A DNA stretch of 53,597 nt from Calditrichota bacterium (GTDB lineage: Bacteria > Calditrichota > Calditrichia > Calditrichales > Calditrichaceae): NCBI GenBank assembly GCA_024278755.1, contig JAJRSO010000058.1, positions 1-53,597 on the forward strand, in the 5' to 3' direction. The notes below the pieces were generated by a model that did no database searches, was not told the DNA's origin, and saw nothing but the letters and a program-made list of their open reading frames with translations. Below are positions 3,671 through 23,475 of the stretch, in pieces (position 1 is the first letter of the stretch; each line of letters starts with the position of its first letter). The translations under genes and the position numbers were made by a program.

Positions 3671-5035
3671 TTAATCACGGTATTTTTTATACATCTGATC
3701 CCCGTCAAAGCCTAGCGCTTTCCAGTTGATGCGTTTGTTCTTACCTCGTCCGTGACAGTTTGTACAGGTCAGCGCATCTTCTTTTGGAGAAACCATATGG
3801 TCAATGCCCCAGTACATTTCGGTTTCTACCCAACCATATTCTCCGCTGTAATCCAAACCGGCAATTTTCATTCCTTCGGCTGCGGCTTTGTTCCAGTCGA
3901 AATCTTTCCAGTAGCCGCCCCAAAGATGCGGAACAATCAGATAGTTGTGCTTGGCGTCGTATATCTGTTTTCCGCGCATAACTTTATAGGGATACAATTT
4001 GGAATCCTTATCGCTTCGTTTACCCAGCGGTTTATTCAGAGATAGAACTTTTTTAGGATCAAACGTATCACCTTTGAGATATCGGGTAGAAGTGCCATTA
4101 TACCAATGGTATTCCGGTTTCACATTTTTCCCCCAGCGGAAAGAGCCTTTTTTCTTCATATAAGTTGGCATGCCGTTTTCATCTTTTTGCGCTTTAATAT
4201 CCTGCCCGGCCGTGGACCAGTCCCAGTACAGTTTGGTGGGATGTCCTTTGGCAAAAACAGGGATATGGCAGGTTTGGCAGGCAATTCTTTTGGTGTGTTT
4301 GTTTAAGATTTTTGATTCGTGGATTGCTTCATCATCGTGACAGCTTGTACATTCGACACGATTTTCTTTATCGGTTACGATGGCCATCGATTCGCCTGAA
4401 ATCTGATGAGCCTCTGTGGTATGGCAGTCGATACAGGTCAAATCATTACCCATATGGACATCGTATTCGGGTGAGGGGTTTATCAAACCGGCATCCAAAT
4501 CACCGTGTTTTACATTTTCGCCGCCCCCGCCATAGAAATGACATGTGCCGCAGTTTTGGTTTGTGGGTAGCCCCACACTACGTGCGGCAGCGGTTAAATC
4601 TACATCTTTAGCCGGCATTCCGGCGCCTTTGGGATTTTTCTTGTACTGGCCGGATAAATCATGACAAACCAGGCAATCGACGTTCTCTTCCTTGGTAAAA
4701 TCAAAAGAGGCGTCTTTCCAGCCGTATCCGGCATGGCAGCTTGTGCAACGCGGCCAGTTTGACTCTACACTAATACAGTAGTTGTTAAATACATTTTTTT
4801 TCCCGGCAGAAAACGTACCTTTATGACCGGGAATGCCTTTAACCTCTTTGGTCCATTTCCAGTGAATCGTCTGCATCATTTCTTTAGCAGCGTCTTCATG
4901 ACAATCGAGACAGGTTTGTGTCACTTCCTCGGGTGTAAAAAGTGAATCTTCTATCAATTCGGCATGATCTTCTCCGGCAAAAGACAGGTTAAAAAGAAAC
5001 AGGATAATGAAAAATGAAAGAGCTGATTGTTTCAC
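3671..5035 (-). CDS. octaheme c-type cytochrome, tetrathionate reductase (Otr) family
   Basis: The 454-residue secreted protein has a Sec signal peptide (hydrophobic residues 5-20, LSFAG cleavage region) and eight CXXCH motifs: CLDCH, CTSCH, CLVCH, CGTCH, CIDCH, CTSCH, CQTCH and CTNCH. Length and heme count match the octaheme Otr family, whose characterised Shewanella member reduces tetrathionate and nitrogen oxyanions in vitro. The physiological substrate here cannot be read from sequence. The GTG start is supported by a strong GGAGG about 8 bases upstream. The gene is monocistronic, with no membrane quinol donor adjacent. The Hmc-like complex or the conduit cytochromes elsewhere in the window could supply electrons (inference). 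Confidence 0.85.
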   Translation of the reverse strand: MKQSALSFFIILFLFNLSFAGEDHAELIEDSLFTPEEVTQTCLDCHEDAAKEMMQTIHWKWTKEVKGIPGHKGTFSAGKKNVFNNYCISVESNWPRCTSCHAGYGWKDASFDFTKEENVDCLVCHDLSGQYKKNPKGAGMPAKDVDLTAAARSVGLPTNQNCGTCHFYGGGGENVKHGDLDAGLINPSPEYDVHMGNDLTCIDCHTTEAHQISGESMAIVTDKENRVECTSCHDDEAIHESKILNKHTKRIACQTCHIPVFAKGHPTKLYWDWSTAGQDIKAQKDENGMPTYMKKKGSFRWGKNVKPEYHWYNGTSTRYLKGDTFDPKKVLSLNKPLGKRSDKDSKLYPYKVMRGKQIYDAKHNYLIVPHLWGGYWKDFDWNKAAAEGMKIAGLDYSGEYGWVETEMYWGIDHMVSPKEDALTCTNCHGRGKNKRINWKALGFDGDQMYKKYRD

Positions 5036-7135: not shown

Positions 7136-8305
7136 TTAACGTTTAAAAAAATCATTAACGATGGTATTAATATCGTTTTTCTTTAATACTTCAAGCTCTC
7201 CCAAATAAACATGCCCGTCCGCCGGAATACGGTTTTCATCTGTCGTAGAAGAAACCGATTTTTTAATATACGCGGATAAACGGTTAATGTCGTCGTTAAA
7301 AAGATTCACGGCGCTTTGTCCGATTTTTAAGGCAGACAATTCTTCGTCAAGAGCAGAAGCGTCAATTTGACAAACCCAGTTGTTTTCATAGGGCGTTCTT
7401 TCCAGCTCTTGCAAATTATCAGCCAGTTGCTTGTTTATTTGATGCACCCTACCGCTTATCGGCGCATTAAATGGGATTGAAGTGTCGTTCTGTTTTATGG
7501 TAAAGAGCGCCTGGCCTTGTTTGACTCCCACACCCAAATCCGGCATTTCGATGGAGCTGATTTTTCCAATAATTTTATTGGCAAAATCGTCAATGCCAAC
7601 AGCAACCATGCCGTCGTCATTAATAGCCGCCCAACAATGTCCCTGCGAAATAAACACACCGCCCGGGATTGAAAAATCAATGGAGTCTTGCACGCCGATG
7701 GATTCCATATTCGTTATATGTACTTTTGCCTTTAACTGCTTTTTAATTCTATCCTGCCGTTTGATAAGGAATTTATTTACCATGGCAATAAGCTCGTCTT
7801 CGGTAAATGGTTTTTCTACATAATCCATAGCGCCGAATTTCATAGTTTCCACGGCGGTATCTACGGAAGCGTATCCGGTAATAATAATAACGTCGATATC
7901 GGGACGCAGATGCTTTACGGATTTACAAACATCTACTCCGCTCATGGCCGGCATTTTTAAATCGGTAAACACAAAATCATAATTATGTTTCTGAACCAGC
8001 CCCAGCGCTTCCTGTCCGGTTTCTACCGTGTCTACCGAGTAGCCTGCGATAACCAGGATTTTTCGGAAGCTGCTTAAAATAATCTCCTCATCATCAACGG
8101 TCAAAATTTTTGCTTTTGGATTTTTGACCTCTACTCGTTTAAGGGTCTTGGATTCGTGGCTAAAATCAAGTTTAAGGTTTTCTGCCAACGCTTCCTCACG
8201 CTCTTTACGCTGTTTTTTTTCAGCCGTTGTTTTGATTATCCGGCGGATGATAAAATCCGCAAGGATAAAAACAATCAAAGCAAGAATTGCCAAAAGTATA
8301 CCCAT
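7136..8305 (-). CDS. membrane-anchored receiver with GcvH-like domain (paralogue 1)
   Basis: The 389 residues contain an N-terminal TM helix (3-24), a basic/acidic linker, a receiver (about 66-185; DDEE, phospho-Asp in FVFTDLKMP, ITGYASVDTA, KPF) and a GcvH-like beta-barrel (about 205-330; GVKQGQALF, FNAPISGRV). The lipoylated lysine expected about ten residues before the AP-x-SG turn is replaced by Asp, so the domain is probably not lipoylated. There is no DNA-binding or enzymatic output domain. It closely resembles the product of 14054-15211, which caps the other end of the same operon. I infer a phosphorylation-controlled membrane adaptor acting on the Hmc-like complex rather than a transcription factor. 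Confidence 0.8.
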   Translation of the reverse strand: MGILLAILALIVFILADFIIRRIIKTTAEKKQRKEREEALAENLKLDFSHESKTLKRVEVKNPKAKILTVDDEEIILSSFRKILVIAGYSVDTVETGQEALGLVQKHNYDFVFTDLKMPAMSGVDVCKSVKHLRPDIDVIIITGYASVDTAVETMKFGAMDYVEKPFTEDELIAMVNKFLIKRQDRIKKQLKAKVHITNMESIGVQDSIDFSIPGGVFISQGHCWAAINDDGMVAVGIDDFANKIIGKISSIEMPDLGVGVKQGQALFTIKQNDTSIPFNAPISGRVHQINKQLADNLQELERTPYENNWVCQIDASALDEELSALKIGQSAVNLFNDDINRLSAYIKKSVSSTTDENRIPADGHVYLGELEVLKKNDINTIVNDFFKR

Positions 8306-8341: not shown

Positions 8342-9151
8342 TTATAAATTCTCCGAACTGCATGGAATCAAATACTTTAACTCGAATTCCAGATTTGCCG
8401 GTACAATGGTGTAAAACCAGCCGTTAAAATAAGGGTCTTTTTCTATCAGTGTTATATCGGCCAGAATTTGTTCATTCACTTTTAATATTCGTCCGCTCAG
8501 TGGAGCCAATAAGCTATGCGTCAATTCATCATCTGTTTCTATCTGAAAACAGCTGTTCCCCTGAACAATTTCATTGTCGGCGGAAAGCAGATCGATGTGT
8601 TTAATAGTGGATTGAATGGTTCGTAAAAACAAATCGGTAAGCCCGATTTTTACCGAACCATCGGCTTCTAAAAAAGCCCAGCCGCCGTAGCCCAGTCGCC
8701 GGTATTTTGCCGGACAGGGAATATAAAGAAGCGTTTCGGTGTCATTTTTGAGCATTGCCGCCTTTTGGCGATCGCGGATAGTGCTGTACTGCAGAGCCCG
8801 CGAAACAGAACTGAGTAGTTCTTCTAAGGTAAACGGCTTGGGCAGAAAATCTACCGCGCCCGTATATAATGCTTTTACCGCATTCTCGACGGTAGAGAAA
8901 CCGGTGGTGATGATTACCGGAACGGAAATCTCTTTTTCCCGCAGGTACTCCAACAGCCCAAAACCATCCATTCCCGGCATCATAATATCGCTAATAATCA
9001 GTTGGTATGTTTTATTGGATAATTTTTCGAGCCCGCTTTCTGTGTCAATAGCGGTGTCTACCTGCCAGTTTTCTAATGAGCACAGTTTTACGATAGAATC
9101 CAGGATAACCTGTTCATCGTCAATTGCCAGAATATGTACAACGTCTTTCAT
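8342..9151 (-). CDS. soluble receiver with GcvH-like domain
   Basis: The 269 residues form a receiver (about 6-125; DDEQ, phospho-Asp in IISDIMMPGMDG, TTGFSTVENA, KPF) followed by a GcvH-like barrel (about 145-260; GYGGWAFLEADGSVKIGL, LLAPLSGRI). The lipoyl-lysine position is acidic, as in the two membrane-anchored paralogues. It starts 9 bases after the histidine kinase stop, so kinase and receiver are almost certainly a cognate pair. It ends about 37 bases before paralogue 1. The receiver has the GYS/GFST-VENAV signature typical of NtrC-like receivers, but no AAA+ or helix-turn-helix output follows. Confidence 0.82.
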   Translation of the reverse strand: MKDVVHILAIDDEQVILDSIVKLCSLENWQVDTAIDTESGLEKLSNKTYQLIISDIMMPGMDGFGLLEYLREKEISVPVIITTGFSTVENAVKALYTGAVDFLPKPFTLEELLSSVSRALQYSTIRDRQKAAMLKNDTETLLYIPCPAKYRRLGYGGWAFLEADGSVKIGLTDLFLRTIQSTIKHIDLLSADNEIVQGNSCFQIETDDELTHSLLAPLSGRILKVNEQILADITLIEKDPYFNGWFYTIVPANLEFELKYLIPCSSENL

Positions 9152-9160
9152 ACTTTTTCC

Positions 9161-11035
9161 TTATTCGGTATCGCTGTCGTCAACAGGAAGGTGGATAGTA
9201 AAAACAGTACCGACATTGATTTCGCTTTCCACATGAATCGATCCGCCGTGATTATCAATAATGCCCCATATAACGGAAAGGCCCAAACCAGTACCCTTTT
9301 GCCCTTTAGTCGTAAAAAAGGGCTCGAAGATCTTATTTAAATTTTCAGGCGGAATGCCACATCCGGTGTCGGCGGTTTTGATTTCAATGTACTCTTTTGC
9401 GCCCTCTTCCTCTTTAATCTTCCAATGTTGCCATTCTCCGCCCTTTGTTACACAGCCTTCAATCCGCCCTTTGCCGGGAATTTCGATAAAATAAACCGGA
9501 GCGCCGCACTGAGGGCATCTCTTTCTGGAATCGATTAAAGATGTTTGGCACTTGGGGCAGGAGAGCTCAATCTCGGCTTTGTCATCAATCAGAATGCCAT
9601 ATTTGTGACGGTTTTTACCGTAAATCGGATCCAGATGGATAAAGCCTTCACTGCCACCGGATTTGGCCCGGAGTTTAATAGAAGCCATGCCCCTGATTTT
9701 TACATCCGGATCCATCAAATTGTGTCCTTTTGGACATAAGGCCTGTTTTATCTGGGCGGTGCCGTATGGTTTTAGGCTGATTAGTTTTGTACTGATGCGA
9801 ATAGAGCCGCCTCCGGCGCACATGGCATGGCTGGCATTGACGATAAGATTGGTAAAAACCTGCTGCATCTGGTTAGCGTCAATAAGTACCTGAGGCAGAT
9901 CGGGCGCCAGTTCTTTTTCCAGGGTAACCTTACTGATATTCAATTGATGCTCAACAACAGAAGCAGCGCGTTCGATGATATTGCGAATATTGGCTTTATT
10001 CTTTTTTGGAACCGACTGCCTGGCAAAATCCAGTAACCCTTTCACTATTTCACGGCTGCGTTTTGTTTCGTGAACGATCACTTCCAGGTCGTTTTTTAAT
10101 TCCGGCTGGCTTTTGGCCCGTTTTAATAAAAAACTTGAATAGGTAAGAATGCCGGTAAGCGGATTGTTGATTTCGTGGGCAACGCCGGCCGCCAAACGTC
10201 CCAGGGAAGCCATCTTATCAGATTGAAATAATTGTTGGCGTGCTTCGGCCGTTTTACGGGTCATATTATCAAAAGAACGGGCCAGAGCGCCTAATTCATC
10301 GTTATTTAGATGGCCAATGGTATAATTAAGATTACCGGAAGCGACTTCTCTGGTGGCTTGCACTAATTTTTTAACCGGTTTATCCACCCACAGATGCACC
10401 ACAATCCAGAGTACAAAACCCAACAGTCCAATGGCAAACAGGGCAAAAACAACCATAGAAATTTTAGCGTTTTGCAGTTCGTCATCCATGGTTTTAAGAC
10501 AAACGGTTAAATCCAGTACACCCAGCACTTTTTGTTCCCGCGGATGCACATGACAACTACTGTTCCAACAGGACGGTTCATTGTAAATAGGATTGATTAC
10601 ACCAAAGGTACGTGCCGAATCGGGATGCAGCCTGAATATTCGGGTACGGTCTTTCATATCCAGTTTTTCAAGGGGAACCCCGGTCGCATGACAGTTGTAA
10701 CAGGCTTCTGCCTTTTTATCCAGCATTTCACCGATTTTAGAGGAATCGGAGGCGTAATTAATTTCGCCTTCTTTATTCAGAATACGTACTTCCTGAATGC
10801 ACTGCTGTTTGCCGATTGTTTTAATTATTGCGCTGATGTCACTGCGATTATTAGCCAGCATGGCCGAGCGTACGCTGCTTTTAATGGTTTCGCTTTGCTG
10901 GCTGGCATGACGTTTTATTTCGCTTACAAGAGTGCGTTCTAAAAAGCGGACATTAAAAAAAGCAAAAGCGCCGATAATAATGATTATTGCAACGGTGGCG
11001 CTAAAAATAATTTTGAAACTTATTTTATTAATCAT
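9161..11035 (-). CDS. diheme sensor histidine kinase with zinc ribbon inside the ATPase domain
   Basis: I start at ATG 11035 (MINKISFK); the frame extends to a GTG at 11092, but the first TM helix follows the ATG directly. The periplasmic sensor region carries CYNCH and, about 55 residues later, CWNSSCH (CX4CH), both plausible c-heme sites, so the sensor probably binds two hemes and reads redox state or a small ligand. A second TM, HAMP and HisKA (GVAHEINNPLTGI) follow. The HATPase domain has its N box (LIVNASHAM), then an insert of roughly 125 residues containing CPKGH, CPKC and CPQC, before G1 (DTGCGIP) and G2 (GTGLGLSVIWG). The insert looks like a zinc ribbon within the catalytic domain. 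It is co-transcribed with two receivers and the Hmc-like complex. Confidence 0.85.
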   Translation of the reverse strand: MINKISFKIIFSATVAIIIIIGAFAFFNVRFLERTLVSEIKRHASQQSETIKSSVRSAMLANNRSDISAIIKTIGKQQCIQEVRILNKEGEINYASDSSKIGEMLDKKAEACYNCHATGVPLEKLDMKDRTRIFRLHPDSARTFGVINPIYNEPSCWNSSCHVHPREQKVLGVLDLTVCLKTMDDELQNAKISMVVFALFAIGLLGFVLWIVVHLWVDKPVKKLVQATREVASGNLNYTIGHLNNDELGALARSFDNMTRKTAEARQQLFQSDKMASLGRLAAGVAHEINNPLTGILTYSSFLLKRAKSQPELKNDLEVIVHETKRSREIVKGLLDFARQSVPKKNKANIRNIIERAASVVEHQLNISKVTLEKELAPDLPQVLIDANQMQQVFTNLIVNASHAMCAGGGSIRISTKLISLKPYGTAQIKQALCPKGHNLMDPDVKIRGMASIKLRAKSGGSEGFIHLDPIYGKNRHKYGILIDDKAEIELSCPKCQTSLIDSRKRCPQCGAPVYFIEIPGKGRIEGCVTKGGEWQHWKIKEEEGAKEYIEIKTADTGCGIPPENLNKIFEPFFTTKGQKGTGLGLSVIWGIIDNHGGSIHVESEINVGTVFTIHLPVDDSDTE

Positions 11036-11110
11036 TTTAATACCTAATGTTATCCAAAACACATTTTGGTTTTTAGGATAAAAAACAAACACAGTTTTTT
11101 TTCGAAAACG

Positions 11111-11347: not shown

Positions 11348-12547
11348 TTAATGAGACGATTTAAAAACCGGCATACGTGTAACAATCCAGCGGAAGACCC
11401 ATATCTCAGCAAAAATAACCATGAGTGTTACTACAAACTCCTGCCAGGATGGAATATAATGCACGACCGCATTCCAATTATAAGCAATGATCGATGTGTT
11501 TAAACGGTTCAGCATAATCCCGATCAGGGATAAAATAGCCGCAATCCGGATAATGCTTAGGCTTCTGTTACGAACACCAAAGGCGTACATAAAACCCGGG
11601 ATCAGAACAAATCCAATCACTTCAGTCAGATACCAGAGTCCCCACCCGTCCGTAATTAGCGTCCAGTGCTGACCGTGAATGAAAATAAGGGCTTTAAAAA
11701 AATAGTAGACAAACATAGTGATGGCCGCTCCTTTTCCCAATCCGAGCATTATGTCATCAAAAGAATGGTGACTTTTGGGATCAATGAGATCTTTAAACAC
11801 GCGGTGACTGATGGTGCCCTCAAAAATAATCATGGATAGCCCGGCATAAATACTGGAAACAAAAAACAGAATGGGAATAAATTCGGAGTACCACAAGGGG
11901 TGGATTTTTGGTTTAGCCATCAGGAACAGGGCGCCAAGGCCGGACTGATGGAGAGTGGACAGGGAAATACCTAAGATAACAGCGCCAAGGGTTAAGCTTT
12001 TAACAAATTTTTCGGTCTTTTTCCAATTCAGCCATTCGGCAATGACCGGAGAAAATTCTACAAATTCTGCCGTCATATAAATTAAAAAATGCCAGGCAAC
12101 CAGAAATAATACCGAACTTAGCCCAAAGGAATTTCCGATAATCGGGTTGATAATATGCCAGGGGCGCCCCAAATCCAGCACCAGTGCTCCGGCGTAAAAC
12201 ATATAGGCTAGTAACCCGTTTAGAACAGTAACACGGACGATGGAGTGGTATTTGTCGACCCGCATAATATAAACGACAAAAGTAATAACATAGGCTCCTC
12301 CGGCGAAGGCTACGCCTGTTACCACATCAAATCCAATCCAAAAACCCCAGGGAAATTCCTGTGATAAATTGGTTACAGAGCCAAGACCGTATACAAACCG
12401 GAAGTATAAAATAACCAGTCCCAGAAGAATAATCGGTATGGAAATTATATTGAACGGGGTTAACCATTTCCCGCGGGGCTTCATTTCTTGTATGATAAAC
12501 TTGATGAATCGTTTCGATTCATCCCGTACCGTTACTTCATTATTCAT
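11348..12547 (-). CDS. NrfD/HmcC-family integral membrane quinone-interacting subunit
   Basis: About 399 residues with roughly ten hydrophobic helices, including FPWGFWIGFDVVTGVAFAGG and LDLGRPWHI, typical of NrfD/PsrC/HmcC polytopic subunits that exchange electrons with menaquinone. I prefer ATG 12547 (MNNEVTV), preceded by AAAGGA at ideal distance, over ATG 12565. It follows the ferredoxin gene and precedes the small membrane peptide. With the periplasmic pentaheme lipoprotein and the exported four-cluster ferredoxin this makes an Hmc/Qrc-like complex linking periplasmic cytochromes to the quinone pool. The direction of electron flow cannot be told from sequence. Confidence 0.88.
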   Translation of the reverse strand: MNNEVTVRDESKRFIKFIIQEMKPRGKWLTPFNIISIPIILLGLVILYFRFVYGLGSVTNLSQEFPWGFWIGFDVVTGVAFAGGAYVITFVVYIMRVDKYHSIVRVTVLNGLLAYMFYAGALVLDLGRPWHIINPIIGNSFGLSSVLFLVAWHFLIYMTAEFVEFSPVIAEWLNWKKTEKFVKSLTLGAVILGISLSTLHQSGLGALFLMAKPKIHPLWYSEFIPILFFVSSIYAGLSMIIFEGTISHRVFKDLIDPKSHHSFDDIMLGLGKGAAITMFVYYFFKALIFIHGQHWTLITDGWGLWYLTEVIGFVLIPGFMYAFGVRNRSLSIIRIAAILSLIGIMLNRLNTSIIAYNWNAVVHYIPSWQEFVVTLMVIFAEIWVFRWIVTRMPVFKSSH

Positions 12548-12577
12548 TTTTTTATCCTTTATCATTTTGTATTCAAC

Positions 12578-13429
12578 TTATTCAGAATCATCCGTTTCTT
12601 TATCCGTTAAATGACTGAACCCAAATAATAGTGCCGGCAGGCCGAACAATACTAAGGGGACAGAATACAAAAATTCTTTGGTGTATTCCGGATAAGGTGT
12701 GGTGCCAAGATCGGTCCGAAATCCGATTTGTTCGAACGGAACCGCCGAAAGATACAGATAGCCGGTTCCGCCGGCTTCATGTTCACCATAAATATGATGT
12801 ACGTAATCATCCGGATTGTTATAAATACGCTTTCTGGCGTCTTCAATCAGCTTTGTCCTGGTACCGAAAATAAGGGCGTCGGTAGGACAGGCTTCCACAC
12901 AGGCCGGACGTTCACCGTCCTGCAGCCTATCAAAGCACAGGGTGCATTTTTCTATTTTGGGATTCCATTCATCATATTCAAATTTAGGAATATCAAACGG
13001 GCAGGAAACCATACAAAAACGGCAGCCCATACATTTATCTCCCCGCCAGATGACAGGGCCTTCTTTTGTTTTTTTCATGGCTTCGGTGGGACAGGCTGCC
13101 GCACAGGCCGGCTGCATACAGTGCATGCACTGCTTTTTCACAAAAACGTCGCCTTTGTCTGTTTCGAAGCGGTTAATAACCATCCATTGTTCATCGCTTG
13201 TTGTCCGAACCTGCTCCAAAGCATTATCATTTTGTACATCGGGCACCAATAGATCGTGTGCTTCACCGCAGGCCATTTCGCATTCGCGGCATCCGATACA
13301 GCGGGTCGTATCAACCAGCACGCCAACAAATTCTTCTGGTTTTAACGGTTCTTTTGCAAATAACTTTTTGCCCGTTAAAGCCGTCGCCCCGACCGCGGCG
13401 GTTGTTTTTAAAAAATCGCGTCTATCCAT
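12578..13429 (-). CDS. Tat-exported four-cluster ferredoxin subunit (HmcB/DsrO-like)
   Basis: The 283-residue protein starts with a twin-arginine signal (DRRDFLKTTAAVGATAL) and carries four cysteine clusters: CIGCRECEMAC, CMHCMQPACAAACP, CMGCRFCMVSCP and CTLCFDRL...CVEACP, each fitting a [4Fe-4S] centre. A hydrophobic helix near the C-terminus (about 255-272) probably anchors it next to NrfD. Subunits of this type wire NrfD-bound quinone to a periplasmic cytochrome or catalytic subunit. There are 30 bases to the next gene and 35 to the previous, so it is one operon. No molybdopterin catalytic subunit accompanies it, so this looks like a pure electron-transfer complex. Confidence 0.9.
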   Translation of the reverse strand: MDRRDFLKTTAAVGATALTGKKLFAKEPLKPEEFVGVLVDTTRCIGCRECEMACGEAHDLLVPDVQNDNALEQVRTTSDEQWMVINRFETDKGDVFVKKQCMHCMQPACAAACPTEAMKKTKEGPVIWRGDKCMGCRFCMVSCPFDIPKFEYDEWNPKIEKCTLCFDRLQDGERPACVEACPTDALIFGTRTKLIEDARKRIYNNPDDYVHHIYGEHEAGGTGYLYLSAVPFEQIGFRTDLGTTPYPEYTKEFLYSVPLVLFGLPALLFGFSHLTDKETDDSE

Positions 13430-13464
13430 TGTAACTCCTATAAAATTTTAAAATAAAAGGCATT

Positions 13465-14007
13465 TTACTTTCCTGTTTTCTCATGACAGGAAGAACATTC
13501 TTCACTGGCCTCTTTTCCCGTATCCATATCATGACAGGACCAGCATTTATTATGAATGGCGACTTTCGCTGTTATTTTTTCTTTACCGATATGGGTGGGA
13601 TCGGAATGGTGGCATTTGGAGCAGTTGTAATCTTCCTTCATTAAAGCCGATGAGCCGGTATGGCAAACCTGGCAGTCAATTTGCGAATAATTAAAATAGT
13701 CTTCGTGCGGAGTATCTAATGCTTTTGCATTAATATTGTGATGGCAGTCCGAACATTCCAGTTCAAACTCCTCCACGTGCATTTGGTGCGGGAAGGCGAC
13801 ATCGCCCACTTTTGACGGAAAGACAATATCTTCGGGGGCGTGTGTAAATTCTGTAACAGACGCCGGTACTTTTTCCGGATGGGTTAAAAGTGAATCGAAA
13901 AGGGCTGTCGGCGCCAATTGCCGCTCTTCTTCTTCCATATCGGCACAGCTAACGATGGAGAAGGCAAACAGCGCTGTAACTCCAAAGAGAATGATTGATT
14001 TTAACAT
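13465..14007 (-). CDS. pentaheme cytochrome c lipoprotein of the Hmc-like complex
   Basis: The 180 residues begin with a lipoprotein signal (FSIVSC, Cys about 21) and contain five CXXCH motifs (CSDCH, CQVCH, CSKCH, CWSCH, CSSCH). A FPHQMHVEEF stretch before the first heme supplies a distal His, as in class III cytochromes. It sits first among the structural genes of the Hmc-like complex and is the likely periplasmic electron exchange partner. Canonical cytochrome c3 is tetraheme and Hmc's own cytochrome has 16 hemes, so this is a compact variant. Confidence 0.88.
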   Translation of the reverse strand: MLKSIILFGVTALFAFSIVSCADMEEEERQLAPTALFDSLLTHPEKVPASVTEFTHAPEDIVFPSKVGDVAFPHQMHVEEFELECSDCHHNINAKALDTPHEDYFNYSQIDCQVCHTGSSALMKEDYNCSKCHHSDPTHIGKEKITAKVAIHNKCWSCHDMDTGKEASEECSSCHEKTGK

Positions 14008-14053: not shown

Positions 14054-15211
14054 TTATTTGTTCTGCAGAAATGTTTTGGAAAATTCAAACAGAATTTCTG
14101 TCTTGTCCGATTCGCTTAATTCAAAATCGGCATTGGCCGTCGTAGCTTTTTCTTCAAATTTTTTCAGTAATTCGTTGTAACGTTCCACTTCGCTTTGATA
14201 CCAGTCGATGGAAGCGGCGCCAATTTTTAATGTTTGCAATTCGCGAGCAATATCGGACGGTTCAATCGCGCAAATCCAGCTCAGCTCAAAGGGCTTCACA
14301 GAAAGCCATTCCGGATGGTCGGCGTGTTCCAGATTAACGGCGGTAATTTTTCCGCTTACGGGCGACGGGATTTCCAGGGTGTGCCCCCCGCCGTACTGAA
14401 TGGAAAATAAAATACCACCCTTTTCAATTTCCCGGTTTACTTCGGGAAGGAGAACGGCATCAATGTTATTAAATATTTTGCGTACCAAATCATCTAATCC
14501 AACACGAACGATACCGTTCAGTTCAATTCTTACCCAGGCATGCTGATCCGAAATAAAGGCGCCGGCAGGTACATTCAGTTCATATTGTGATTTGGACTCA
14601 CGGGTACCGGAAGTAACCAGACGTACCTTATGTTTCATCTGCTTTTCAATTCTATCCTGGCGCTTAATAAGAGCCGCGTTTACAAATTTAAGCAGTTCGT
14701 TTTCGGTAAACGGTTTTTGGACATAATCCATGGCGCCGTATTTCATTGTTTCCACAGCCGTATCCACAGAAGCATATCCTGTGATAATGATGACATCGAT
14801 ATCGGGACGCATATGCTTAACCGATTTGGTTACATCCACACCGTCCATTTCGGGCATTTTTAAATCCGTAAAAACAAAATCGTAATCGTTTTTACGAATA
14901 AGTCCCAGCGCTTCGGAGCCTTTTTCAACGGTATCAATACTGTATCCGTCGATTACCAGTATTTTTCGGAAGCTGTCCAGAATAATACTCTCATCGTCAA
15001 CGGCCAAAATTCTGGCCTTCGGATTTTCCACTTCGACCCGTTTTAAAGTTTTTGCTTCTTCACTTACGTCCAGTTTTAAGCCGATGTCCAGCGCTTTTTC
15101 TCTTTCACGGACAATTCTGGATTCCCTTATCTTTTTTAAGAGAGTTCTGAGAATCAGATCTACCAGAATAAAAGCAATGATAGTAGTAATAACAATACCG
15201 GTTACAACCAT
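14054..15211 (-). CDS. membrane-anchored receiver with GcvH-like domain (paralogue 2)
   Basis: The 385-residue protein has the same order as the 7136-8305 product: TM helix (4-25), linker, receiver (about 68-185; DDES, FVFTDLKMPEMDG, ITGYASVDTAV, KPF) and GcvH-like barrel (about 205-330; VPAGAFISDQHAWV, IPSPVSGKI). Long stretches of the receiver are nearly identical between the two, implying duplication. Again no lysine is at the lipoylation position (Gly-rich YGGGHTLE instead). It heads the operon, directly upstream of the pentaheme cytochrome. Two membrane adaptors plus one soluble adaptor per operon is unusual; division of labour is unknown. Confidence 0.8.
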   Translation of the reverse strand: MVVTGIVITTIIAFILVDLILRTLLKKIRESRIVREREKALDIGLKLDVSEEAKTLKRVEVENPKARILAVDDESIILDSFRKILVIDGYSIDTVEKGSEALGLIRKNDYDFVFTDLKMPEMDGVDVTKSVKHMRPDIDVIIITGYASVDTAVETMKYGAMDYVQKPFTENELLKFVNAALIKRQDRIEKQMKHKVRLVTSGTRESKSQYELNVPAGAFISDQHAWVRIELNGIVRVGLDDLVRKIFNNIDAVLLPEVNREIEKGGILFSIQYGGGHTLEIPSPVSGKITAVNLEHADHPEWLSVKPFELSWICAIEPSDIARELQTLKIGAASIDWYQSEVERYNELLKKFEEKATTANADFELSESDKTEILFEFSKTFLQNK

Positions 15212-16410: not shown

Positions 16411-17832
16411 ATGCATAATTTAAAGTATTTAGGCGCTCTGCTGGTTTTTGGTCTCGCAGCCTGCACCCAGTTTCTGGAAAGTGATAATTCCGGAAAGAAT
16501 ATCTACAGCGGTGATGATGGCTGCGTTTACTGCCATACGAATGAAAGCCGTCTAAAAGTGCTGGCTCCGGCAGAAGCAGGCGGAGAAGGCGCAGGCGGTG
16601 GCTGAGGCGGCGCGGTCGCTCCGTTGGAGCCATGGCAAAAAGTATATATTAATCTCGGCAGAAAAACAGACGTTGCCCAGCTGGATTACCATATGGCCAA
16701 TATGAGCTGTGTTTCCTGCCACGGCGGGGACAAAACAAAACCGAACAGTATGGAAGAAGCGCATACGGGGTTGATAAAAGATCCTTCCGCCTATGATGAA
16801 AATGGAAAGAACTCTTGTTCAGCAGCGGGGTGTCATGAATCGACATCCGAAAGTTTTAAAAACAGTATGCACCGGCAGCTATGGGGCGAACGGCGTATGG
16901 TTGCCCTGCGTTCCGGCGTGGATCAATTTTCGCAATGTCCCCAGTCGACCCAGGACGGCTTTAACGGCGAATGCACCAACTGCCATGCAACTTGTGGAGA
17001 TTGCCATGTATCTATCCCGAACAGCGCCGGAAGAGGCTTGGTAAATTCGCATCGATTTATTCAGACGCCGGATCCGGCCAATAACTGTATGGCCTGTCAT
17101 GGTTCCCGGCTGGCGCATGATTTTCTGGGTGATTACGAAAATTATCCTCCAAGGCAAAAAGATGTTCATTCCGATTTTTATACCTGTACGGATTGTCATG
17201 GAAAGACGGAAATGCATGCTTCCGCTGCGGAAAACACAGACCGCTATCATTACGAGCATTTACCCTCCTGTGAAGAAGCGGGTTGTCACTCGGCGGGCGA
17301 TACTTTAAATACGGTAAATGCGTATCACCAAAAACATTTTAACGACCTTTCATGCTTCGTTTGCCATTCGCAGGAATATAACAACTGTACATCCTGCCAT
17401 GTAAAAGACGAATGGAAAACAGACCCCAATTACCAGAATAACAATCCGGTTGAAGATTTTAAAATCGGTTTAAATCCCATGAAAACGGACGCCGGCCGTC
17501 TACGGTTTAAATATGCCGCTCTGCGCCATGTTCCGGTCGATCCGAAAAGCTATGAAAACTGGGGCCCGGCTTCGGCGGTGCTACCCGGCTATGACGATTA
17601 TCCGACCTGGAAATACACCTCTTCGCATTCCATCCGAAAATATACGGTGCGTACCGATACATCCGGCGGAAAATTATGCTGGGAAAGTTGTCACACAAAA
17701 GAAGGGTTTGGAAATCCGGATAATAAAACATATTTCTTATTCCGTGATTCCGTGAGTGTCGAGTGGCCGGACGAGGTGAACGCCAATGAATCCGTTTTTG
17801 TCGATGATGCTTTACCTGACGGCTGGAAGTAG
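16411..17832 (+). CDS. 11-heme outer-membrane lipoprotein cytochrome with in-frame UGA (candidate selenoprotein)
   Basis: Two open segments, 16411-16605 and 16606-17832, share one frame and are separated only by TGA at 16603-16605. The first has a lipoprotein signal (GLAAC) and one heme motif (CVYCH). The second has ten more (CVSCH, CSAAGCH, CTNCH, CGDCH, CMACH, CTDCH, CEEAGCH, CFVCH, CTSCH, CWESCH) but no signal peptide and no credible ribosome site, so it only makes sense as a continuation. The UGA lies in a Gly-rich loop (GAGGG-UGA-GGAVAP), where Cys or Sec would fit. A hairpin follows at SECIS-like distance. Two CX4CH and one CX3CH motif are unusual. Role inferred: cell-surface terminal cytochrome of the conduit encoded downstream. 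If the UGA is a true stop, only a 64-residue fragment is made. Confidence 0.7.
16603..16630 (+). promoter_or_regulatory. UGA codon plus bacterial SECIS-like hairpin
   Basis: Twelve bases after the UGA comes a perfect five-pair stem, GCTCC (16618-16622) with GGAGC (16626-16630), closing a three-base loop GTT. The loop begins 17 bases after the UGA and its first base is G followed by U. Spacing and loop resemble the E. coli fdhF SECIS (loop about 18 bases after UGA, GU in the loop). This is suggestive but short hairpins are common in GC-rich stretches. Confidence 0.5.
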
Positions 17833-17925: not shown

Positions 17926-18846
17926 ATGAAGAAGTTATTTGCTTTAACACTTGTACTTTCCATGTTTTTTGTAATGGGCTGCAGCGATGAAACGACAAAA
18001 GTGGACGAATTTGATGTTTTAACCACCTATCTCGAAGGAACGAACGGAGACTATATCAATAATATGGGATCATGGATTTTGGGCGCCGGTGTTTTGAATG
18101 CCAATTTTGATTACAGCGCATACACGGTTCTGGATTTACGCAGCGCAACAGATTTTGCTGCAATGGCCATTCCGGGCGCTATCAATGTAACTTTAACAAA
18201 TATGTTTGATGCAGCGGAAGCCTCCACTAAGCCGATTTTGGTAACCTGTTATAGCGGCCAAACGGCTTCGTTTGCTCATACGCTACTGCGCCTTAAAGGG
18301 TACGAAGCATATGTAATGAAATTCGGTATGAGTTCTTACGATGCCAGTCTGGATAAATGGACCAGTAACTGCAGTGACCAATACGCTAATAATCTCGTCA
18401 AAACAGCCTCTCCCACCCTGCCAAGTTATGATTTCCCAAAATTGGATACGGGCAAAGACAAAGCCGAAGATATTTTAGACGAACGTATTGATGTGGCAAT
18501 TGCCGCCTGGGGAACGACTTTAATTGGCGCCGGTACCGTAATTGCTTCTCCGGATAATTACAATATTATTAATTACTGGTCACAAACCGAATATTTAGAC
18601 CATGGCCATATCAACGGCGCTTATCAGGTTACACCGGGCACATTAACAAAAGACGAAAATCTGTCGGTATTTGATCCGGCCGGCGGAAATGTTTTGTATT
18701 GCTATACAGGCCAAACGGCTGCCGCTACCTGTGCCTATCTGGATGTTGTCGGTTACGAAGTAAAAGACATCAAATTTGGTTTTAATAATATGCACTGGAC
18801 GGAGTTACCAGGACATAAATGGCCAAAACCGTATTCAACAAATTAA
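17926..18846 (+). CDS. tandem rhodanese-like lipoprotein
   Basis: The 306-residue protein has a lipobox (FVMGCSD, Cys19) and two rhodanese domains, each with a catalytic-loop cysteine: CYSGQTAS in the first (about residue 107) and CYTGQTAA in the second (about 265). Domain starts are marked by VLDLRSATDF and, less conserved, INYWSQTEYLDHGHINGA. Exported rhodanese lipoproteins accompany porin-cytochrome conduits in Geobacter (ext clusters, as I recall). Their function there is unresolved; sulfur transfer or structural support of the conduit are options. A strong AAGGAG precedes the start. A rho-independent terminator follows. Confidence 0.85.
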   Translation: MKKLFALTLVLSMFFVMGCSDETTKVDEFDVLTTYLEGTNGDYINNMGSWILGAGVLNANFDYSAYTVLDLRSATDFAAMAIPGAINVTLTNMFDAAEASTKPILVTCYSGQTASFAHTLLRLKGYEAYVMKFGMSSYDASLDKWTSNCSDQYANNLVKTASPTLPSYDFPKLDTGKDKAEDILDERIDVAIAAWGTTLIGAGTVIASPDNYNIINYWSQTEYLDHGHINGAYQVTPGTLTKDENLSVFDPAGGNVLYCYTGQTAAATCAYLDVVGYEVKDIKFGFNNMHWTELPGHKWPKPYSTN

Positions 18847-18903: not shown

Positions 18904-18941
18904 ATTTTATTTTTGCTCCCTTTTGACTGTTGGGGTTTATA

Positions 18942-20141
18942 ATGAAGAAAATACTTTTATTACTATTTGCCACCGTTTCCGCCGTTTTTGCCGCCGAAAT
19001 TACCGGAAGTTTATCTACCGGGTTTTATACGGGCACACCCTTCTGGAATTCAGAGAATTATTCCGACGGAAATGTAATAGATACCGAAGACTCTTTTATG
19101 CGCACGGTCAATCAGTTACGTCTTAACGGGAAATTCGGGAACCGCTTCAGTGTTTATGTTAATGCTCTGCGTAGCGACGGATTTCAGAGTGATAATCATC
19201 TATCCGAAACAAAAATTTACCAGGTTTACGGGCGCTATATGTTTACGGGTGGCAATATAAAACTAGGGCGTTTTGTTCCTTTTAACCGTTGGATTTGGGG
19301 TTCGGTCGATGGCGCCGCGACATCTTATTCTTTTAGTAAGTTGGCCAAAATATCGGTACTTGCTGGTAAACATACACCCTATGGTTTGTTATATGATACC
19401 GGAAATTCCGTTACGGTTGTTTACTCCGATTTGGCCCTAAAGTTTGGGGCATATGGGACAAAAATCAAATTGTATAAGGATGATAATATTACCAAAGCCG
19501 GTATCGATTTTTATGGCCGTACAAGACATCTGCGCTATAACGGGAATTATGGTTTTGATATCACAAACAAGCGGTTATCCGACGGTGGTTTGGGAGTGTT
19601 ATATCTGGTTAACAGTAAACTGAATTTTAGTGGAAATTACCGTCTGTTCCGTACCATGCCCTGGAAACTCGGCGGAACAGATTTTCAAACTTACCTTGTG
19701 GAACGGTTTCTGGCAGGCGCTTCTTACAAATTCTTTTCTAAGTATACGCTAAACCTGCGCCAATTGTTAACCATGACATCCGATAAAAAAAATTATTTAT
19801 CGTATATCACGATTAATCATACCTATTTTACGCTGGGTTTAAGTTATTTCTCGGGAGACTTGGAGTTAAAGCGAATAGGCCTTGTAGCCGGACTCAGGTA
19901 TAAGCAAAAAAACTTTGCCGTATCCGGCGGATTGGCGCCGGTAAGCTATCAGCCTCGCTATTCCAATAAAAGTTTAACGAATTCGGCGTATTATTTTAAG
20001 GCCCGGTACCAGGTTTTAAAATGCCTGACGGTAAACGCAAATTTTAATTATTATATGTTCGATAAAAAGCAAGAACCACTTTTATTGCGGTCAAAGTTCA
20101 GGGGAGGACTGCAAATTAATTATTTTTTGGGAGCTGAATGA
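18942..20141 (+). CDS. outer-membrane beta-barrel of the cytochrome conduit
   Basis: About 399 residues with a signal peptide (hydrophobic core LLLLFATVSAVFA) followed by alternating polar/aromatic strands throughout (for example FSVYVNALRSDGF, GNIKLGRFVPFNRWIW, LNFSGNYRLFRTMPW) and a C-terminal strand ending in an aromatic/acidic tail. No heme motifs. I use ATG 18942 rather than TTG 18930 because the signal peptide starts there and GGGGT is suitably placed. It overlaps the dodecaheme gene (ATGATGA). By position it is the channel that lets periplasmic and surface cytochromes touch, like MtrB/PioB/Ext channels, though it is shorter than MtrB and I see no close similarity. Confidence 0.75.
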   Translation: MKKILLLLFATVSAVFAAEITGSLSTGFYTGTPFWNSENYSDGNVIDTEDSFMRTVNQLRLNGKFGNRFSVYVNALRSDGFQSDNHLSETKIYQVYGRYMFTGGNIKLGRFVPFNRWIWGSVDGAATSYSFSKLAKISVLAGKHTPYGLLYDTGNSVTVVYSDLALKFGAYGTKIKLYKDDNITKAGIDFYGRTRHLRYNGNYGFDITNKRLSDGGLGVLYLVNSKLNFSGNYRLFRTMPWKLGGTDFQTYLVERFLAGASYKFFSKYTLNLRQLLTMTSDKKNYLSYITINHTYFTLGLSYFSGDLELKRIGLVAGLRYKQKNFAVSGGLAPVSYQPRYSNKSLTNSAYYFKARYQVLKCLTVNANFNYYMFDKKQEPLLLRSKFRGGLQINYFLGAE

Positions 20142-21010
20142 TGAAAAAAATTATACCTGCAGCCCTTGTCCTGTTTACAATTGGACTGGTGATAGCTTCC
20201 GGAATTGAATGGAAATCGGATCTTATTTTTTCACATAAATATCATATTGAAGAGGCGGATGCCGAATGCAGCACCTGCCATGAAAAAGCGGAGACCAGCA
20301 CAAAAGGAACGGATGACCTGCTGCCGGAGATGGAAACATGTTATGGCTGTCATGATGAGGATGACACCGAATGTTCGCAATGTCATAAACAACCGGACGA
20401 CCCGTTACTCTTACCGAGGATAGAAAAATATGCGGTAAAGTTCAATCACAAAAAACATATTGATGAAGATGTTGCCTGTACCGTTTGCCATACAGGTATT
20501 TCTTCAAAAGTTCAGGTCGAATCTTCCATGCATTTGCCGAAGATGGATCTTTGTATGACATGCCATGAGACGCCCGCCTCCACCGCAGGGTGCTATTCTT
20601 GTCACCAGACTACAGATAATTTGAAACCGGTGGATCATGAAACCGGATGGACTAAAAATCACGGAATGGCGTCCGAATCGGAAAGTGAAAACTGTAAATC
20701 ATGCCATACCGAAAATGATTGTATCAGTTGTCACCAGGGAGAAAATCTACAAAACGAAAGCCATCCGCCCGAGTTTTTATTAACCCATGGTCTAAGTTAT
20801 ATGGTTCGTGAGTCGGATTGTGCCTCCTGCCACGAGTCACGGCAGTTTTGTATTGATTGCCATATGCATGCAAATACGACATACCCGGCGGATCACCAGG
20901 TGACCGGATGGGAAGCAGAGGGGCACGCAGAATCAGCCCGGATGGATTATGATCGCTGTGCTGTTTGTCATGAACCCGGCGCACCTTTATGTCTTCAGTG
21001 TCATAAGTAA
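20138..21010 (+). CDS. dodecaheme periplasmic cytochrome c
   Basis: The 290 residues contain twelve CXXCH motifs (CSTCH, CYGCH, CSQCH, CTVCH, CMTCH, CYSCH, CKSCH, CISCH, CASCH, CIDCH, CAVCH, CLQCH), about one heme per 22 residues, and a signal peptide (ALVLFTIGLVIASG). Extra histidines in FSHKYHIEE and FNHKKHID are likely distal ligands of class III-type hemes. It is translationally coupled to the barrel. The inferred position is the periplasmic face of the conduit, receiving electrons from the inner-membrane quinol oxidase encoded next. Confidence 0.9.
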   Translation: MMKKIIPAALVLFTIGLVIASGIEWKSDLIFSHKYHIEEADAECSTCHEKAETSTKGTDDLLPEMETCYGCHDEDDTECSQCHKQPDDPLLLPRIEKYAVKFNHKKHIDEDVACTVCHTGISSKVQVESSMHLPKMDLCMTCHETPASTAGCYSCHQTTDNLKPVDHETGWTKNHGMASESESENCKSCHTENDCISCHQGENLQNESHPPEFLLTHGLSYMVRESDCASCHESRQFCIDCHMHANTTYPADHQVTGWEAEGHAESARMDYDRCAVCHEPGAPLCLQCHK

Positions 21011-21567: not shown

Positions 21568-23475
21568 TTGAAAAAAACCGTATTGTTTTTTGTGCTTTTT
21601 ATTTTTACCGTACTTTTATTCGGTCAGGAAAAGTATGAATGCTTGGATTGCCATCAGGAACATGGCTTAACCGAATCTGTAAACGATTCTACGGAAGTAT
21701 CGGTTTTTGTTGATACGGCCGCGCTTCAGCTTTCGGTTCATGCCGATGTTGAATGTACTGACTGCCATGTGGGGACAGAAAATCATCCCAATGAAAACAC
21801 TCTTCCCGAACCGGCATGTACCAGTTGTCATGAAGACGAAGGAGAAGAATATGATACGAGTATTCATGGCAAAGCATATCATCTTGGAGATAAAGCGGCG
21901 GCGAATTGTTGGGATTGTCATGGCGGGCATGGAATTACGCCCCATTCTGCCAGCCACCAGGATACCATGATTGCCACTTGTGGTAAGTGTCATTCGGATC
22001 CGGAAATAATGGCTAAATTTGGCAGAAGGAATATGGACCCGGTAGCGACGTTTAAACAGAGTATCCATGGTAAAATATTTATGGATGATCCGGCCGCACC
22101 GGTGGCAAATTGTATTGTTTGCCATGGAAGCCATGATATTAAAGGTGCCATAGATCCAACATCAAAATTGAATAAACTCAATATCCCTAAGACCTGCGGA
22201 ACCTGCCACGAAGACGAAGAAAAAGAATACTACCAGAGCATCCACTGGGCTTCCTTGCAGCGTGGGCACTATGAAGCGCCCGTATGCACAGACTGCCACG
22301 GTGAGCACAATATTCATCTGGCCGAAGGGGAAAATGCAGTAACAAATAGCCTGCTTCAGCCCACAAAGCTGTGCGCTAATTGCCATTCCTCAAAGACAAT
22401 GATGGAACGCTTCGGCCTTGATGCCAGACGTCTTGATTCTTATATGAAAAGTTATCATGGACTTGCCGTGTTAAAAGGCTCGCCGGAGGCGGCAACCTGC
22501 ACCTCGTGCCATGAAGTGCACGCCATTCGCAGCAGCAGAGATAGTTTGTCTTCGGTCTTTATTGCAAACCGCAAACAAACCTGCGGGAATTGTCATCAAA
22601 ATATTACGGAGGAATTCGCATCCATCGATGTCCATCCGTTGGATATGAAATCCCGAAATCCCATTGCCTATCTTTTTAAACGGATTTATTTCTGGCTGAT
22701 TCTTGTTGTTATCGGCGGTATGCTGGCCCATAATATTTTAATTCTGGTACATCATGTACGCGAAAAAAGAAAAAAAGAACTGGGACAGATTCGTGTGACA
22801 CGTTTCCAGACATTCGAGGTGTATCAGCATCTGGTGATGTTAACTAGTTTTCTTACCCTTGCGGTAACTGGGTTTGCCTTAAAATTTCCGGATGCCGGAT
22901 GGGTGCACTTACTGGTTTCTATGGGTATGACAGAGGCTATCCGTTCAACAATCCATCGGGTTGCGGCAATGGGTCTGGCAATTACCTCAGTTATTCAGCT
23001 ATTTTACTTTGTCTTTACGAAAAAGGGTCGGCATGATTTCTTGTCACTTCTTCCGAATGTTGACGATATAATACATGTATGGCAAAATATCCGCTATAAT
23101 TTAGGTTTGAGTAATGAAAAACCGCAATTCGGACGCTATGATTATGGCGAAAAAGCGGAATACCTGGCCCTTATCTGGGGCAACATGGTAATGGGCGCCA
23201 CCGGTTTTATTTTGTGGTTTCCTGAAACATTTATCGGCTTTTTACCTATATGGATGTTTGAGACATCTGAGGTGATTCATTATTTCGAAGCCTGGCTGGC
23301 CATTTTAGCCATCATCGTCTGGCATTGGTTCTTTGTCTTTGTACATCCCGATAATGCGCCGGTTAACTTAACCTTTTTGGATGGAAAGATTACCGAAGAA
23401 AATCTGAAACACCATCATCCGAAAGAATATGAGCGCTTAAAGGCGGAACAAGCTCAAAAGGAAGAAAAAGAATAA
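21568..23475 (+). CDS. 11-heme cytochrome c / cytochrome b561-like inner-membrane quinol oxidase
   Basis: The 635-residue protein has a signal peptide and eleven CXXCH motifs in its first about 345 residues (CLDCH, CTDCH, CTSCH, CWDCH, CGKCH, CIVCH, CGTCH, CTDCH, CANCH, CTSCH, CGNCH), many followed by GxH. The C-terminal part (about 367-610) has five or six TM helices with His pairs (YQHLVMLTSF, IHRVAAMG, VWHWFFVFVHP) typical of di-heme cytochrome b of FdnI/b561 type. Fusions like this (compare CbcL-type proteins) oxidise menaquinol and pass electrons to the periplasm. It is the natural electron source for the dodecaheme/barrel/surface cytochrome set upstream. A bidirectional terminator follows immediately. 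Confidence 0.88.
   Translation: MKKTVLFFVLFIFTVLLFGQEKYECLDCHQEHGLTESVNDSTEVSVFVDTAALQLSVHADVECTDCHVGTENHPNENTLPEPACTSCHEDEGEEYDTSIHGKAYHLGDKAAANCWDCHGGHGITPHSASHQDTMIATCGKCHSDPEIMAKFGRRNMDPVATFKQSIHGKIFMDDPAAPVANCIVCHGSHDIKGAIDPTSKLNKLNIPKTCGTCHEDEEKEYYQSIHWASLQRGHYEAPVCTDCHGEHNIHLAEGENAVTNSLLQPTKLCANCHSSKTMMERFGLDARRLDSYMKSYHGLAVLKGSPEAATCTSCHEVHAIRSSRDSLSSVFIANRKQTCGNCHQNITEEFASIDVHPLDMKSRNPIAYLFKRIYFWLILVVIGGMLAHNILILVHHVREKRKKELGQIRVTRFQTFEVYQHLVMLTSFLTLAVTGFALKFPDAGWVHLLVSMGMTEAIRSTIHRVAAMGLAITSVIQLFYFVFTKKGRHDFLSLLPNVDDIIHVWQNIRYNLGLSNEKPQFGRYDYGEKAEYLALIWGNMVMGATGFILWFPETFIGFLPIWMFETSEVIHYFEAWLAILAIIVWHWFFVFVHPDNAPVNLTFLDGKITEENLKHHHPKEYERLKAEQAQKEEKE

Follow-up and report, generated by a model that had tools for sequence, protein, structure and literature searches.

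The window (the whole stretch of DNA that was analysed, 53,597 nucleotides) contains a forward-strand gene cluster that begins with a multiheme cytochrome gene whose reading frame includes a single TGA codon. The features of this cluster are as follows.

16411 to 17832, forward strand: gene for an 11-heme c-type cytochrome, almost certainly a selenoprotein (frame with one TGA, heme motifs, lipoprotein signal, homologues)
16411 to 16464, forward strand: predicted lipoprotein signal peptide, with the lipobox Cys18 at its end (from the sequence)
16603 to 16605, forward strand: in-frame TGA, very probably selenocysteine (Sec), residue 65, in the context GGG-U-GGA (UGA/Cys exchange in relatives)
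16618 to 16630, forward strand: predicted bSECIS hairpin of five pairs with the loop GTT (covariation; published rules; lost in Cys forms)
17926 to 18846, forward strand: tandem-rhodanese lipoprotein with two CYxGQT loops (PF00581; the loops)
18930 to 20141, forward strand: probable outer-membrane beta-barrel, porin-like, with the likely start at 18942 (AlphaFold, Foldseek)
20138 to 21010, forward strand: multiheme cytochrome with 12 CXXCH motifs (PF14522, PF22113; motif count)
21568 to 23475, forward strand: cytochrome with 11 CXXCH motifs and a fused membrane domain of the cytochrome b561 type (PF01292; motif count)

The frame of the first cytochrome starts with the ATG at 16411, includes the TGA at 16603-16605 and then remains open until the TAG at 17830-17832, which corresponds to a product of 473 residues if the UGA encodes Sec. 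The codon of the lipobox Cys18 lies at 16462-16464, and this residue is kept in 99% of 81 aligned family members. Eleven heme motifs were counted, one before the TGA (CVYCH, residues 38-42) and ten after it; eight are of the CXXCH type, two are CX4CH (residues 136-142 and 287-293) and one is CX3CH (423-428). This number represents the family norm, being found in 67 of the 81 aligned members. Several CXXCH-type motifs and an export signal, which together define multiheme c-type cytochromes, are thus present in the form of the 11 motifs and the lipobox. The first-pass annotation had described a lipoprotein signal and first heme, a TGA at 16603 and ten later hemes; all of these can be read directly, and every coordinate checked agrees. 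The AlphaFold model of the cytochrome had an overall pLDDT of 85. A phmmer search of the PDB gave no relevant match, and a Foldseek search with the model gave no match.

Among 60 relatives of the window genome, a first search produced 20 strong matches (E <= 3e-25) in 19 genomes. Eighteen of these have one in-frame TGA, located at the aligned position, and one of the eighteen (L013) has an additional TAA within the reported stretch. The other two are without a stop: L011 has a Cys (GG-C-GG), and L019 is a partial frame with the site outside it. In one of the genomes (G005), two UGA-containing copies of the cytochrome were observed (L008 and L020), which are 56% and 40% identical to that of the window. 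A scan of the GTDB representatives yielded more than 580 relatives; the best 80 matches were retained by name. It had been proposed to ask whether Cys or UGA occupies the site in homologues; among the best 80 of the more than 580 relatives, UGA was found in 38, Cys in 37 and neither in five. The alignment of UGA with Cys in homologues, by which bacterial selenoproteins are tested, is therefore observed here. The aligned motif is mostly G-x-G-U-G-G in the UGA forms, versus G-G-C-G-G in the Cys forms. The former were found in the Calditrichota, Neomarinimicrobiota (Fidelibacterota), Delongbacteria, Eisenbacteria, Gemmatimonadota and unnamed bacteria, and the latter in the Ignavibacteriota, Bacteroidota, Desulfobacterota, Chlorobiota and one MAG of the Actinomycetota.

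In a family tree computed without the columns of the Sec loop, the Cys forms constitute one group of 36, together with L129, which is nested among the UGA forms. At least six changes of the state of the site are needed, versus about 27-30 with shuffled labels. Judging from these alignments, the UGA is kept under selection as Sec and is exchangeable with Cys. The five relatives that have neither residue (L125 from BMS3Bbin03, L096, L108, L134 and L143) show R, G, D, Y and D, respectively, at the site, the flanking Gly residues being kept in L125. Since both Sec and Cys are missing from these five of the 80 relatives, four of which have SelB above the cut-off, the residue is not indispensable and has been lost several times.

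The distribution of the TGA bears on the simplest alternative, namely that it arose through faulty sequencing or assembly, or else through a recent nonsense mutation as the gene decays. The window genome is indeed a draft of 79 contigs. However, 38 of the 80 best relatives, spread over several phyla, share this TGA and retain the frame and the heme motifs on either side of it, and the codon possesses a covarying hairpin of its own, as described below. Because of the conservation of the TGA, this explanation is already refuted, and we attach a negligible probability to it.

The hairpin (GCTCC-GTT-GGAGC) begins 12 nt past the UGA, with 17 nt between the UGA and the loop; the five pairs, the GTT loop and both spacings claimed in the first-pass annotation were all found at 16618-16630. 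In the window sequence alone, this hairpin is weak evidence, since random synonymous codons provide five pairs at the same place in 4.2% of draws. In the comparison of UGA forms, however, a hairpin recurs 12-13 nt past the UGA, with five to six pairs and a loop that is mostly GTT. Covariation was assessed with 46 distinct UGA-form sequences and 500 shuffles: 84.1% of the stem cells were paired (66.4 in the shuffled sets), 40 stem cells were changed on both sides (10.8 shuffled) and the covariation score was 0.418 (0.126 shuffled), none of the 500 shuffles attaining any of these values. When the partner was shifted by one column the score was 0.14, and RNAalifold recovered the same stem minus its top pair. 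At least four of the five stem pairs are present in 38 of 47 UGA forms versus 2 of 37 Cys forms (Fisher 7e-13).

According to published rules, a bSECIS hairpin lies within 16-37 nt, has a G in the loop and a stem of at least four pairs, and has an MFE of -7.5 or lower (PMC13188914). The hairpin of the window conforms to every one of these (spacing of 17, loop GTT, five pairs, -12.3 kcal/mol over 48 nt), and the bacterial SECIS anticipated at the outset is thus upheld by the published rules as well as by the covarying stem. Hairpins that satisfy the rules (at -4 kcal/mol or better) were detected in 40 of 49 UGA forms, 30 of them with the 17-nt spacing, versus 4 of 37 Cys forms; in the other nine UGA forms the hairpin is weak or not recognisable. 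In some neomarinimicrobial members the encoded peptide is V-P-L-V or V-P-L-A, versus A-P-L-E elsewhere, and the pairing of the stem is kept; as these variants show at the level of the alignment, the protein sequence bends to the stem. An Rfam gathering scan of the window gave no match, such a scan being uninformative for bSECIS elements. Conservation of the TGA across phyla, its replacement elsewhere by Cys and the covarying hairpin together place the case far above chance.

The machinery for Sec insertion is encoded in the window genome (G000, 96% complete), in which SelA, SelB, tRNA-Sec and two SelD were identified; the search for selA, selB, selC and selD that had been suggested thus located all four. 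Three observations had been named in advance as grounds for rejection, i.e., unrelated residues in the homologues with no other UGA cases, a genome without selB or selC, and reads with TGT, TGC or GGA in place of the TGA, and none of them was made. The second selD (G000:C53:18790-19725, L169) has an in-frame TGA of its own and is probably a selenoprotein too; it resides on the same contig as the tRNA-Sec (C53:6603-6692). Of the 17 UGA-form genomes from the first search, 16 had SelB above the cut-off; the one that did not (G004) is 89% complete and has a tRNA-Sec. Among another 17 UGA-form genomes, SelB was above the cut-off in 16, the exception being a 1.9-Mb genome. Among the Cys-form genomes, SelB was found in 2 of 17, both from the Desulfobacterota, and in addition it was not found in G016, a Cys-form relative. 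The totals are 32 of 34 UGA-form versus 2 of 18 Cys-form genomes (Fisher 2e-9), in which the lineages are non-independent samples.

These data also bear on a second alternative, a selenium-free recoding of the UGA of the sort seen in alternative codes, whereby the codon is read as Gly or Trp or is passed through near-cognate readthrough. The site is located within a Gly-rich stretch, and TGA is the rarer stop relative to TAA among the 43 open reading frames of the window (34 TAA, 5 TGA and 4 TAG). Nevertheless, TGA still terminates five of these frames, the residue exchanged for it is Cys rather than Gly or Trp, and the UGA tracks both SelB and the SECIS-like hairpin. Recoding of this kind is thus considered very improbable.

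We regard it as equally improbable that two polypeptides are produced, i.e., that a short lipoprotein with heme 1 terminates at the UGA and a separate protein is started farther on, for example at the TTG at 16624. The mechanically called open reading frame does begin at this TTG. The Cys forms, however, are single uninterrupted proteins, and the hairpin would be unexplained if translation stopped at the UGA. Attachment of c-type hemes requires an export signal, and the downstream part of the protein is without one.

On the basis of these comparisons, the TGA of the window is almost certainly read as selenocysteine and the gene would be a true selenoprotein gene. The hairpin 12 nt past the UGA of codon 65 would recruit SelB with its Sec-tRNA(Sec) to decode this codon, and a single 473-residue c-type lipoprotein with 11 hemes would result. 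Replacement of Sec by Cys would have occurred mostly in lineages without SelB.

In terms of genomic context, a homologue of the tandem-rhodanese lipoprotein was detected in at least 71 of the 80 loci (immediately following the cytochrome among those listed), a homologue of the 12-CXXCH cytochrome in 34 and a homologue of the b561-type fusion in 25, many of the 80 loci being interrupted by contig ends. The model of the presumed barrel consists of nearly all long strands (pLDDT 81), and its Foldseek matches were porins, ushers and other outer-membrane barrels. At the gene level, a barrel gene adjoins genes for exported multiheme cytochromes, the arrangement by which an electron conduit is recognised. 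Locus L115, a Cys form, retains the rhodanese, but its later genes encode an unrelated transporter; the conduit setting is therefore not universal, and the rhodanese can be regarded as the core partner.

The lipobox and the adjoining predicted beta-barrel suggest that the cytochrome is located at the outer membrane; they point to the membrane rather than to one side of it, and the cytochrome may be oriented toward the surface, on the outer face. It probably belongs to an outer-membrane electron conduit, to judge from the gene order and the structural models. This conduit would comprise the Sec cytochrome, the tandem-rhodanese lipoprotein, the porin-like barrel and the two further multiheme cytochromes, and the cytochrome b-type protein would supply it with electrons drawn from the quinone pool. 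An Hmc-like complex, composed of an NrfD/HmcC-like membrane protein, an HmcB-like Fe-S protein and a 5-CXXCH cytochrome (11348-14007, reverse strand), is encoded divergently from the Sec cluster and could serve as its electron source.

The nearest known system is extHIJKL-M of Geobacter, which comprises the rhodanese lipoprotein ExtH, the barrel ExtI, the Sec cytochrome ExtKL and the 12-heme ExtM. ExtKL (NF040886; GSU2937-2936 of Geobacter sulfurreducens) is a multiheme c-type cytochrome selenoprotein encoded together with the rhodanese lipoprotein ExtH and the outer-membrane barrel ExtI (PMC5877670, PMC6148476). Like the window protein, it is an exported multiheme cytochrome with one Sec and with a rhodanese lipoprotein and a barrel among its neighbours. 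In contrast, ExtKL has five hemes and carries its Sec near the C-terminus, in IPDG-U-PTPNR (contexts from L161, L164 and L165), whereas the window cytochrome has it in the GGG-U-GGA Gly loop that follows heme 1. No match to NF040886 (cut-off 250 bits) was obtained with the window protein, which also lacks the IPDG-U-PTPNR context. Since the Sec sites differ and no cut-off is reached, the window family resembles the ExtKL selenoproteins without being a member of them.

ExtM (NF040943), a cytochrome with 12 hemes encoded in the ext operon for selenite/tellurite reduction, shows remote homology to the window family over hemes 2-8 (hhalign 98.5%, E 2.9e-15), and weak HMM matches to its model were obtained from 37 of the 81 family members. 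For the window protein itself there was no match, and every score obtained from relatives fell far short of the full-length cut-off of 800 bits (for example, 23-38 bits). Moreover, the aligned ExtM (L148) is without Sec, and the alignment begins past the Gly-Sec loop. The rhodanese and the barrel of the window are the same kinds of neighbours as ExtH (NF040901) and ExtI (NF040900); they gave no match to these models at E <= 1, whereas the reference cluster L166 does match.

The 2026 table of prokaryotic selenoproteins includes the octaheme family TIGR04315 and the MtrB/PioB-like GSU2204 family NF041027 (PMC13188914), which are likewise exported selenoproteins tied to multiheme electron transfer. 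Both stand apart from the window family: a weak match to TIGR04315 came from one of its 81 members, and NF041027 is not among the matches listed for it. The window family reaches no NCBIfam cut-off and is absent from the 2026 table under any recognised name (PMC13188914). A description of its Sec cytochrome was not found in open-access main texts, and an earlier mention is possible; the genome paper of Caldithrix abyssi does not mention selenium. The selenoprotein family is thus apparently unlisted so far.

Given that Sec is inserted, two roles can be envisaged for it. The residue may act as a reactive selenol on the flexible Gly loop after heme 1, exchanging sulfur or selenium with the rhodanese, such that polysulfide, thiosulfate, selenite or tellurite-like acceptors would be reduced. 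We favour such chalcogen chemistry tentatively, at somewhat below an even chance. Alternatively, the selenol may be the distal ligand of, or face, a heme that has no His partner, thereby creating an unusual redox or catalytic heme. For the 11 hemes, eight invariant free His residues and a ninth that is always just before heme 2 were found; two hemes are therefore left without an invariant distal His, and Sec could sit at one of them. The loop, however, is flanked by Gly and has a mean pLDDT of 57 (residues 61-70), which is poor for a rigid ligand, and five members have neither Sec nor Cys. The constant pairing with a tandem rhodanese points instead to sulfur or selenium transfer. A selenol that ligates or faces an open heme is thus rather unlikely, and such a site is of a type not recorded in the literature searched. 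As a joint proposal, given somewhat less than even odds, the cytochromes may constitute a widespread, unrecognised selenoprotein family, in which the loop selenol either forms a catalytic or docking site with the rhodanese or ligates or faces the open heme; under the catalytic or docking reading, the respiratory conduit that includes the 11-heme outer-membrane cytochrome may reduce S, Se or Te species outside the cytoplasm.

The 38 UGA and 37 Cys forms among the best 80 of more than 580 relatives would add a large, apparently unlisted family to the bacterial selenoproteins; the UGA forms of this family are expected to be split or truncated by standard gene callers. This would also be the second time, after ExtKL, that a cluster of rhodanese, barrel and cytochrome genes includes a selenoprotein cytochrome; as its Sec site is unrelated to that of ExtKL, this suggests that selenium chemistry recurs in such conduits. 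The Sec provides a concrete residue with which to probe how these conduits reduce chalcogen or metal acceptors.

Several other features of the window are encoded on the reverse strand. Three response regulators (7136-8305, 8342-9151 and 14054-15211), each carrying a lipoyl-like domain of the glycine-cleavage H-protein type, surround a histidine kinase at 9161-11092. A further cytochrome, with eight CXXCH motifs and a PF11783 (Cytochrome_cB) domain, is located at 3671-5035.
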